From the NCBI GenBank assembly GCA_904420005.1, contig CAJFTT010000021.1, forward strand, positions 22,538-86,537: DNA of 64,000 nucleotides, given 5' to 3'. This document shows positions 1,040 through 40,630 of this stretch, piece after piece. The position numbers and the translations under genes were made by a program. Position 1 is the stretch's first letter. Each line of letters begins with the position of its first letter. The stretch comes from Candidatus Tabaqchalia intestinavium. GTDB taxonomy: Bacteria; Bacillota; Clostridia; Oscillospirales; CAJFTT01. The notes beneath the pieces were generated by a model. That model saw nothing but the letters and a program-made list of their open reading frames with translations, had not been told where the DNA came from and made no database searches.

Positions 1040-2095
1040 TCATTCAAACAGCGTCGGCTGCTCGGCCGCGCCCTCCGGCGGCGTCATGCCGAGATGGTCA
1101 TACGCCAGCCGCGTCACGCACCGGCCGCGCGGCGTACGCGTGAGATAGCCGATCTGCATCAGGTACGGCTCATAGACGTCCTCAATGGTCACCGCTTCTT
1201 CCCCCACGGCCGCCGCCAGCGTCTCGATACCGACCGGGCCGCCGCCGTAATTGGTGATGATGGTCTTGAGCATGCGGCGGTCGATATTGTCCAGCCCCAT
1301 CGCGTCGATACCCAGCCGATCCAGCGCCGTGAACGCGATGTCGCGCTCGACGACGCCGTCGCCCAGCACCTGCGCAAAATCGCGCACCCGGCGCAGCAGC
1401 CGGTTGGCGATGCGCGGCGTACCGCGGGAACGGGACGCGATGGCCGCCGCGCCGTCCGGCGAAATCTCGATGCCGAGGATGCCCGCGCTGCGCAGGATGA
1501 TGGAAGCCAGTTCCTGCGGCGTATACAGCTCCAGCCGCAGCTGCACGCCGAAGCGGTCGCGCAGCGGGGAGGAAATCTGCCCGGCCCGCGTCGTCGCGCC
1601 GATGAGCGTGAATTTCGGCAGGTTGAGGTGATAAGCCGCGGCCCCCATGCCCTTGCCGGTGATGATGTCGATGGAGAAATCCTCCATCGCAGGATACAGC
1701 ACTTCCTCCACGGTGCGGGCCAGGCGGTGGATCTCGTCGATGAACAGGATATCGTTGGGTTCCAGCTGCGTCAGCAGCGACGCAAGGTCGCCCGGCCGCT
1801 CGATCGCAGGGCCGGAAGTGATGCGGATCTTGACGCCCATCTCGTTGGCGATGACGCCGGCGAGCGTGGTTTTGCCGAGGCCCGGCGGGCCGTAAAGCAG
1901 CACATGGTCCATCGCCTCGCCGCGCTGCCTGGCCGCCTGGATGAAGATCTTCAGATTTTCCTTCGCGCCGCTCTGCCCGATATACTCCTCGATGGTCTGC
2001 GGGCGCAGCGACAGCTCGTTGTCCGCGTCGAGCGGGTTATATTCCGGCGCCACGATCCGGTTCTCGAAATCCGACTCAAATTCCAATCGTTTCAT
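1040..2095 (-). CDS. ruvB: Holliday junction DNA helicase RuvB
   Basis: [39 protein letters not shown]. Confidence 0.98.
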
Positions 2096-2182: not shown

Positions 2183-2770
2183 TCATTTGGACAGCAGCTT
2201 GAGCGCCGCGGTGATGATCTGCTCGACGCTCTCGCACCCGGCGCAGCGGCCCGCCGCCGACGCCGCCTCCGTTTTCGTGAAGCCGAGCGCCGTGAGCGCC
2301 TGCACCGCGTCCTCCACCATGGAGACGTCCACCGGCGCCGCCGCGTTGCCCACCGCGGCGACAGGCGAAGCGGCGAGCTTGTCCTTCAATTCCAAAATAA
2401 TGCGCTGCGCCGTCTTGGCCCCCACGCCTGAGACGCGGGTGAGCGCACGGGCGTCCCCCGCCGCGACGGTCATCGCCAGCTGCGCCGGCGTCAGGTCGGA
2501 GAGGATCGCCAGCGCCATCTTCGGCCCGACGCCCGAAACCGCCAGAATCTTCCGGAAGCAATCGAGCTCCTCCTTCTCCGCGAAGCCGAACAAATCCAGC
2601 GCGTCCTCCCGGACATTCAGGTGCGTATACAGCGTCGTCTGCTGTCCTATCTGCCCCATGGTGCGCAGCGTATGCATGGTGGTGAGGCATTTGAACGCCA
2701 CGCCGCCGCAGCTGACGACGGCCATGCCCGGCTCCGAGGCGACATAGGTTCCCGTTAGGCTATAAAACAT
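2183..2770 (-). CDS. ruvA: Holliday junction DNA helicase RuvA
   Basis: Domain layout and gene order ruvC-ruvA-ruvB; FRKILAVSGVGPKMALAIL, RVSGVGAKTAQRIILELKDKL (HhH motifs). Confidence 0.95.
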   Translation of the reverse strand: MFYSLTGTYVASEPGMAVVSCGGVAFKCLTTMHTLRTMGQIGQQTTLYTHLNVREDALDLFGFAEKEELDCFRKILAVSGVGPKMALAILSDLTPAQLAMTVAAGDARALTRVSGVGAKTAQRIILELKDKLAASPVAAVGNAAAPVDVSMVEDAVQALTALGFTKTEAASAAGRCAGCESVEQIITAALKLLSK

Positions 2771-2780
2771 CCTGGCTCCC

Positions 2781-3293
2781 TCATTTTCTCGTAATGGTCT
2801 GAATCACTCTCGCGGACGCGGCGTTGCGCCGCAGGTTCGCGTGGCAGATGGCGATGGCGAGCGCGTCGGCGGCGTCGTCGGGCCGCGGAATTTTCTCCAG
2901 CGCGAGCAGGCGGCGCGTCATTTCCATGACCTGCTTCTTCTCCGCCCGGCCGTACCCGCACACGCCCTGCTTGACCTGCAGGGGCGTATATTCAAACACC
3001 GGCAGCCCTGCCCGCTCGGCCGCGAGCAGCACGACGCCGCGCCCCTGCCCCACGGCGATGGCCGTAGTGGAGTTGGTGTTGAAAAACAGCTCCTCGATCG
3101 CCATTTCATCGATGGGATACCGCGCCATCACCGCGCTGATCTGCTCATAAATCTGATTGAGCCGGGCCGGCATCCGCTCTCCCGCCTGCGTGGTCGCGGC
3201 GCCATATTCCAGCATGGAGAAGCGGTTGCCCTCCACGCGCACGACGCCATACCCCACGATGGCATAGCCCGGGTCGATCCCCAGAAAAATCAT
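2781..3293 (-). CDS. ruvC: Crossover junction endodeoxyribonuclease RuvC (start at MIFLGIDPG)
   Basis: MIFLGIDPGYAIVGYGVV...AIEELFFNTNSTTAIAVGQGRGV...DDAADALAIAICH. Confidence 0.96.
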   Translation of the reverse strand: MIFLGIDPGYAIVGYGVVRVEGNRFSMLEYGAATTQAGERMPARLNQIYEQISAVMARYPIDEMAIEELFFNTNSTTAIAVGQGRGVVLLAAERAGLPVFEYTPLQVKQGVCGYGRAEKKQVMEMTRRLLALEKIPRPDDAADALAIAICHANLRRNAASARVIQTITRK

Positions 3294-3463
3294 CTCTGCT
3301 CTTCTCCCGTTTTGCATTTCCTTGCGACTCGCAAGCTGCCGGCCCCTTTCCGCCCAGGCCGCGCTGCCGCCGCCCGCTGAAATCCCGGCGAATTCGACTC
3401 TTCTTCTCGCCGGCTGCGTGCCCGCCCGTCGCGGCCGGCGCGCCTCTCCGCCGCTTCCAAAGG

Positions 3464-3492
3464 AATGTTCTTATTATTATAGCATGTCCCGC
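3464..3492 (-). promoter_or_regulatory. Predicted sigma-A promoter for ruvCAB
   Basis: Minus strand TTGCGC-17-TATAAT with extended -10 TGCTATAAT, ~180 bp upstream of ruvC. Confidence 0.6.
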
Positions 3493-3660
3493 ACCCCTGC
3501 GCAAGGCCGGGAAGCGAGTTTCCGCCCCGTCGGCGCATCCGCCCGGCAAGGAAAAAACGGGCGCTCCCGCGAACGTGCCTGGCACCGGCTTTCCTTTCAT
3601 CGCGTTGCAAATCCGCCGCAATTTCGACTATGTTCCACGGTGCGCCACCCGCCTTGCAAA

Positions 3661-3694
3661 AAACTCCCGTATGTTCGGAGGAACATACGGGAGT
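3661..3694 (-). terminator. Intrinsic terminator following the M-box-like leader
   Basis: 14-bp perfect stem ACTCCCGTATGTTC/GAACATACGGGAGT, 4-nt loop, then T6 on the minus strand. Confidence 0.9.
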
Positions 3695-3713
3695 GATAAT
3701 GCTTGTGTGCATT

Positions 3714-3855
3714 CGTCTGAGTTTTGGCTCTGCAGGACAACGAAACCACAACATGGCACACCCTGATTTCTATGTCCTTTGTTCAAGCCAGCGCATGGCG
3801 TCTCCGCCATTTCGCGGCAACAGTCCGCATCCCTTGCAGGAGCCTCGCCTACCGG
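3714..3855 (-). ncRNA. Putative M-box (ykoK) Mg2+ riboswitch aptamer
   Basis: Minus strand GGTAGGCGAGGCTCCTGCA...CTGTTGCCGCGAAATGGCGGAGACGCCA...GTTGTCCTGCAGAGCCAAAACTCA resembles ykoK/M-box conserved blocks (GTGAGGCTCCT, CTGCTGCCC..GAAA.GTC..AGACGCCA, GTCCT..GCTAAAGCTC); CUC(C)UGCA/UGCAGAG stem; own TTGACA at 3885-3890 and terminator at 3661-3694. Confidence 0.7.
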
Positions 3856-3955
3856 ACGGCACGATCACTTGCATTTTTTGCACTTGTCAAGTCTTTGCCC
3901 CGCGCACAGGCAGGCCAAGCAGAAACATTGCTTCGCGTTTCATGCCCCGCGCAGC

Positions 3956-4804
3956 TTATTTCTTATTCTTCTTGACAATAACCACGATCACAACAACCAC
4001 AACGGCCGCCACGATCACGCCGATCACGATGGGCAAAACGATGTTGCCCCCGTCGCTGTCCGCCGCCTGGGAAGAGGTTGCTGCCGTCGCGCGGCTGGAA
4101 GTCGTCGTCGTTCTCGACGAGGTCGCGCTGGTGGAAGAGGTCTCTTCCTCGCTCGCCGCCTCGGAGGAGGTCTCCGGCTCGGAAGCCGTCGAGCTCACCG
4201 GACCCTCGAAATCCGGGTTGGCTTCGCCCGTCGTGTCATACACCGCAAACTCACGGATCGTCTGATTGGCCTTCAGATCGATGCAGGGCTTGAGGAGCAG
4301 GACGCGAACATACTGCGCCGTCACCGGCTCAGAGAAGGTGATGGTATCGACCGTGTTGTCAGCCACCTTCTGCCATTCCGCTGTGAACTCGGCGAACTGA
4401 TAATTCGCGTTCTCCGCGTCGGTCCACGTTTCTCCGTCGTCGGAAACCTGAATCTTGTAACCAGATTCGTCGCCGGCCGGGCGGTCCACGCTGAAGGTAA
4501 TCTCAATCTGGTCAAACGTCACTTCCATACCGAAATCGACGCCAAGATAGACTTCATTCTGGAAAGTTTTATCGCTATCGTTGAGCGTAACCGTATCCTG
4601 CGCCGCGGTCCACATGGTGGACGTGCTGCCATCGAGCGCATTCGACGCCGCTCTCGAGGAACCGTCGTCCCCCTGCGGCAGGTCGCCGGAGCTGATCCCG
4701 GTCATGCCGAGCGCAAGGTTCGTGTCCGCATCCGCAGCAAACGCAGTCGTCCCCATCGCCAGGACAAGCGACAGAGAGCACAACATTGCCAGTGCTTTTT
4801 TCAT
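3956..4804 (-). CDS. Secreted, C-terminally anchored F5/8 type C (discoidin-like) domain protein
   Basis: Signal peptide MKKALAMLCSLSLVLAMGTTAFAA; YKIQVSDDGETWTDAEN...AQYVRVLLLKP; S/T-rich linker, C-terminal TM plus KKNKK. Confidence 0.75.
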   Translation of the reverse strand: MKKALAMLCSLSLVLAMGTTAFAADADTNLALGMTGISSGDLPQGDDGSSRAASNALDGSTSTMWTAAQDTVTLNDSDKTFQNEVYLGVDFGMEVTFDQIEITFSVDRPAGDESGYKIQVSDDGETWTDAENANYQFAEFTAEWQKVADNTVDTITFSEPVTAQYVRVLLLKPCIDLKANQTIREFAVYDTTGEANPDFEGPVSSTASEPETSSEAASEEETSSTSATSSRTTTTSSRATAATSSQAADSDGGNIVLPIVIGVIVAAVVVVVIVVIVKKNKK

Positions 4805-31744: not shown

Positions 31745-31767
31745 CTTCCTCGCAAGAAGCCGCTGAA

Positions 31768-31900
31768 CCTTCTTCCATCCGGACTCACGCACGTCGTGCG
31801 GTCACCGTCGGTCCTGGATTCCAACCAGCGTCAGCTTTCGCTCGCGGACTCGTCGCTCAAGGCGCTTCACCGCCGGTGGGGAATTGCACCCCGCCCTGAA
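31768..31900 (-). ncRNA. FMN (RFN) riboswitch
   Basis: TTCAGGGCGGGGTGCAATTCCCCACCGGCGGT...GAGTCCGCGAGC...GACCGACGGTGA...GAGTCCGGATGGAAGAAGG. Confidence 0.97.
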
Positions 31901-32082
31901 TTGAGTCCAGTATACGCCGTGCGCGCAGATTTGTCAACAGCAAATCCGAAGAGCGCCGACGCCGCGCCGGCCAATCGGGGGACTGGCGAGCGCCGCCCCA
32001 GGCCGCACGGCCAGGCGCGGCCGAATGCCGCGGGGCTCAAAGCTGGCGCTGCCGGATCAGGCACGGCCAGCCTCGCCCGAAA

Positions 32083-40334: not shown

Positions 40335-40630
40335 AGCCCTTGTCTCAGTTTCCACTGGGACAAGGGCTGTCGTTCAGCTCCTGCGGTACCACCCAAATTG
40401 ACGCGCCCCTTTCCGGACGCATCCGCTCCGCTCCGCGCACCATCATGCGCGCTTCCTTGGTAACGGGTGAAGCTCCCGTCGGGCACTACTGCGCATTCCT
40501 GCGGTTCGTCCCGCCCTCCTGAGTCCATTCAGCCGCCCCGCCCCGCTGCCTCGCACCAACCGGCAGTTCTCTGAACCGGGCAAACAGGAAGCTTACTCTT
40601 CTCAGTCATCGGTTTTGTTTGATTGGGCTT
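40335..40630 (-). ncRNA. T-box leader with UGG (Trp) specifier
   Basis: GGGTGGTACCGC (40383-40394), terminator AGCCCTTGTCCCAG...CTGAGACAAGGGCT + T6, specifier context GCTGAATGGACTC (TGG at 40525-40527). Confidence 0.92.

Follow-up and report, generated by a model that had tools for sequence, protein, structure and literature searches.

The locus analysed here raises the question of why an M-box, a class of Mg2+ riboswitch, lies ahead of ruvC with no Mg2+ transporter gene after it. The window (the whole stretch of DNA that was analysed) is 64,000 nucleotides of contig CAJFTT010000021.1 from Candidatus Tabaqchalia intestinavium. The original prediction had described an M-box-like riboswitch on the minus strand with no Mg2+ transporter downstream and with ruvC as the next gene on the same strand, and Pfam searches bear out both statements about the neighbourhood. 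Three readings had been offered, namely Mg2+-dependent read-through into ruvCAB, a free-standing attenuated RNA, and a relic left after transporter loss. The last fits best, given the apparently decayed core and promoter and the missing transporter, and we consider it probable that the element is what remains of the leader of a Mg2+ transporter unit since lost, and that it exerts no control over ruvC. The features of the locus are as follows.

3956-4804, minus strand: upstream gene with an F5/8 type C (discoidin) domain (PF00754, E 4.2e-18)
3885-3890, minus strand: TTGACA, a perfect -35 box and probable promoter remnant (best -10 match 3/6)
3701-3863, minus strand: M-box (ykoK leader) Mg2+ riboswitch aptamer, apparently degenerate (RF00380, clade model, changed columns)
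3663-3694, minus strand: intrinsic terminator, a perfect 14-bp stem followed by T6 (sequence, terminator scan)
3597-3638, minus strand: possible leader-ORF remnant, MEHSRNCGGFATR and stop, with a GTG start, after AAGGCGGGTGGCG (pattern match)
3557-3570, minus strand: second, weak terminator-like hairpin, 5 pairs and a T-run (terminator scan)
3476-3504, minus strand: ruvC promoter, TTGCGC-N17-TATAAT with an extended -10 (TGC) (sequence; match in the nearest relative, G001)
2781-3317, minus strand: ruvC (PF02075, E 3.9e-50); the ORF opens at 3317 and the likely start is 3293
2183-2770, minus strand: ruvA (Pfam RuvA)
1040-2095, minus strand: ruvB (Pfam RuvB)

The RF00380 match covers 3863-3701 of the minus strand and the full model (1-169), with a score of 45.5 bits against a gathering threshold of 44 (E 1.1e-6). 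No Rfam family scored better on this segment, so the covariance search that had been proposed as a check returned a match over threshold and no better match to another RNA class. Because the Rfam margin is thin, a separate clade-specific covariance model was built with 21 M-boxes from the order to which this genome belongs, the window copy excluded; it scores the window M-box at 90.4 bits (E about 1e-19), the sole match in the 100 sequences searched. The two matches together establish the window M-box as genuine by descent, its function being doubtful. By both models it is the single M-box in the 2.13-Mb assembly, which represents about 82% of the genome.

Across the order an M-box is present in 33 of 396 genomes. 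Besides the window copy, 30 full-model loci were fetched, one of which ends at a contig end, and in all 29 with enough sequence a Mg2+ transporter gene follows: 22 are MgtE-type (by BLAST), and 2 CorA and 5 MgtA were assigned by NCBIfam. The window copy is the only one among the order M-boxes examined that no Mg2+ or metal transporter follows, and a search of 2781-3956 for an MgtE remnant found none. A single mgtE is present in the same genome (about 82% complete); it lies on contig C40 and is preceded by a promoter of its own and a short leader ORF but by no M-box. The genome also has one corA, located within the window. For MgtA the genome yielded only other P-type ATPases, the best at 430 bits against a cut-off of 610.75. 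The window holds two further RNA elements, a T-box leader at 40353-40618 (minus strand, 97.3 bits), which follows corA on the same strand without being its leader, and an FMN riboswitch at 31766-31907 (minus strand, 70.4 bits).

Set against its relatives, the window copy looks decayed. Conserved columns were defined as those at least 90% identical across 28 aligned relatives; the window copy deviates at 15 of these 68 columns, 13 of the changes being transitions, whereas the relatives, the two CorA-type copies excepted, deviate at a median of 0 columns and at no more than 6. The changes were mapped onto the solved B. subtilis M-box in 3PDR numbering, a single numbering offset of the B. subtilis sequence fitting 21 of 21 residue identities in PMC3764141. 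By this mapping A46, C99, A106 and A117, invariant in 28/28 relatives and in B. subtilis, have become G, A, G and G, respectively. All four fall in mapped tertiary contacts: C99 is placed near Mg1/Mg2, A106 belongs to the U24-G100-A106 triple, A117 makes an A-minor contact and A46 sits in a junction triple (PMC3764141). The window copy accordingly lacks part of the conserved P2/L4/L5 core that builds the Mg2+ sites, and its P5 stem is weakened. Between its M-box fold and its minimum-energy fold there is a difference of 25 kcal/mol, wider than in any other of the 29 compared, and the minimum-energy fold retains 6 M-box pairs, both being noisy measures since some intact relatives misfold too (L114 retains 6 pairs and L100 retains 7). 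We infer that Mg2+ sensing by this aptamer has probably been lost. Against a relic count the score above the Rfam threshold and the retention of P2, of the L4 tetraloop (GAGA) with its receptor G22, and of one P4 pair through a compensatory change (T-A to C-G); some constraint may therefore remain. It also counts against a relic that G001, which belongs to the same family, has no M-box in its genome, its mgtE included.

The promoter proposed for the element stands only in part. TTGACA is present at 3890-3885, but the best -10 at 15-19 nt from it is GATCGT, a 3/6 match, and a -10 spaced 17 nt from TTGACA would run into the start of the aptamer; among the relatives' M-boxes 29 of 30 have a -10 box of at least 4/6. 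The terminator is present at 3694-3663 just as described. Its 5' arm is identical at 12 of 14 bases to the terminator at the mgtA M-box L111; of 2000 shuffled arms, 24 did as well when compared with the whole set. A further DNA match, 29 of 32 bases in G255 across the 3' end of the M-box and the start of the terminator, was rejected as chance because it lies inside an ORF and no M-box is found there; judged by eye, that ORF presumably encodes an RNA methyltransferase-like protein.

These features bear comparison with the transcription-terminating M-box of B. subtilis (RF00380), which likewise has a full-model aptamer, the P2 and L4 motifs and a terminator a few nucleotides downstream; the window copy differs in having no transporter, no usable -10 and none of the four invariant tertiary-contact residues, and its predicted M-box fold is weak. 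Among the order's M-box leaders, which precede mgtA, mgtE or corA, it is closest to L099 and L104 in the aptamer tree and to L111 in the terminator stem. As in such leaders, a short ORF comes after the M-box; they differ from the window copy in their promoter, which fits the consensus, and in the intact transporter gene that lies 100-650 nt further on.

In the reading that we favour, a transporter gene would have been deleted or moved, and the degenerate M-box and the terminator, perhaps with a leader ORF, would have stayed behind. The promoter and the sensor core would then have decayed while the terminator remained sharp. No terminator was seen in a scan between the stop codon of the F5/8 gene (3956) and 3694; because the 14-bp terminator remains intact and no other credible one comes between it and that gene, it likely now serves to end the F5/8 transcript, and in doing so it would shield ruvC from read-through. 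The F5/8 protein appears to be secreted or anchored, with a Ser/Thr-rich linker and a C-terminal hydrophobic stretch, and no homologue of its gene occurs in any fetched locus, including those upstream of other M-boxes. The lost gene was perhaps an mgtA, because the aptamer groups with the mgtA-type L099 and L104 (80% bootstrap, on a long branch) and the terminator arm resembles that of L111; this is suggestive only.

The short ORF at 3638 could likewise be a remnant of the lost unit. It follows a strong Shine-Dalgarno-like stretch, sits where the relatives' post-M-box leader ORF lies, and matches a leader-ORF pattern found in 29 of 56 transporter leaders and in 1 of 69 ruvC control leaders. 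By position matrix (PWM) it ranks 82nd of 127,912, which is weak, and an nhmmer profile search did not detect it. That it is the remnant of a transporter leader ORF is therefore only suggested by its position and pattern.

A different reading, which we regard as unlikely, is that the element works as a free-standing Mg2+-responsive RNA or as a switch in a 3'-UTR. It would be part of the transcript of the F5/8 gene and would tune termination at 3694-3663 or govern the ORF MEHSRNCGGFATR. The perfect terminator, the aptamer score over the Rfam threshold and a short ORF at the position expected from relatives are consistent with this reading, and there is a precedent in the pe20/rv1535 M-box of M. 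tuberculosis, where a short ORF, not a transporter gene, also comes directly after the M-box and the switch controls this conserved small upstream ORF (PMC12810186). The M. tuberculosis switch affects translation as well as Rho-dependent termination, and its uORF is both expressed and conserved (PMC12810186), whereas the window ORF is weak and unconserved. Several further observations argue against such a switch: invariant residues of the Mg2+ core are altered, the missing -10 speaks against a free-standing attenuated RNA, and the 5' arm of the terminator pairs with upstream RNA at a mean of 0.34 in truncated transcripts as against 0.5-0.9 in most relatives. The more specific proposal of a stand-alone M-box 3' of a surface-protein gene, with a remodelled core and with Mg2+ setting termination or the expression of a 13-residue peptide, we consider decidedly improbable.

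It is also quite unlikely that the M-box unit was recently acquired or rearranged, by horizontal transfer or by the transposition of mgtE or mgtA away from it, and is not a long-resident relic. If neutral, the change at about 22% of conserved columns would make the loss younger than the split between G000 and G001 (ruvC 66% identical), and recent acquisition or rearrangement would thereby be favoured; the lack of an M-box in G001 and at the genome's own mgtE on C40 points the same way. Against this, no mobile element or transporter remnant was recognised beside the window M-box. The original prediction had also suggested looking for a lost mgtE in the synteny of relatives: the M-boxes of the order do precede transporter genes, and an mgtE adjoining ruvC had to be rejected, the coordinates of the two genes never being adjacent in relatives.

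There remains the relation to ruvC. The separate ruvC promoter had been placed at 3464-3492; it exists, but its true position is 3504-3476, about 12 nt away. In G001 ruvC has the same promoter type, TTGCG[G/C]-N17-TATAAT with an extended -10. We therefore expect independent transcription of ruvC, which the window M-box probably does not control. A link between M-boxes and ruvC elsewhere was rejected as well, since none was found at 109 ruvC loci of other genomes (about 10 with less than 400 nt upstream), these loci coming from two collections with possible overlap of species. Read-through that begins at the M-box and enters ruvCAB depending on Mg2+ would couple Holliday-junction processing to this ion. 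In its favour, ruvC comes next on the same strand and a strong terminator stands between the two, but the independent ruvC promoter shared with a relative that has no M-box, the 0/109 count, the second terminator-like hairpin at 3570-3557, the degenerate aptamer and a promoter of decayed appearance make it very improbable indeed.

The comparison of leaders also brought out an ORF pattern. A short leader ORF beginning M[D/E]xGS..., in most cases with a ribosome site of the AGGTGA type, is seen repeatedly ahead of mgtE at a distance of 90-320 nt, and also between M-boxes and mgtA or corA. It occurs in 15 of 27 transporter leaders without an M-box, in 14 of 29 with one and in 1 of 69 ruvC leaders. 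The genome's own mgtE on C40 has such an ORF (L115:265-363), and at L097 the M-box (1660) is followed by two leader ORFs in succession, MDAGSRRKYS... and MESGSKRSPEPDGRHRS..., ahead of mgtA. The recurring ORF may encode an mgtL-like leader peptide that responds to Mg2+. The literature searched yielded no description of this ORF, and no paper on a clostridial mgtE leader peptide or on orphan M-boxes.

Should the window element prove to work, it would represent an M-box without a transporter. As the probable relic of a lost transporter unit, it indicates that an M-box can score above the Rfam threshold and yet be an orphan, and Rfam matches without a transporter should therefore not be taken as new regulons. 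The leader-ORF pattern may merit more attention than the orphan M-box itself.
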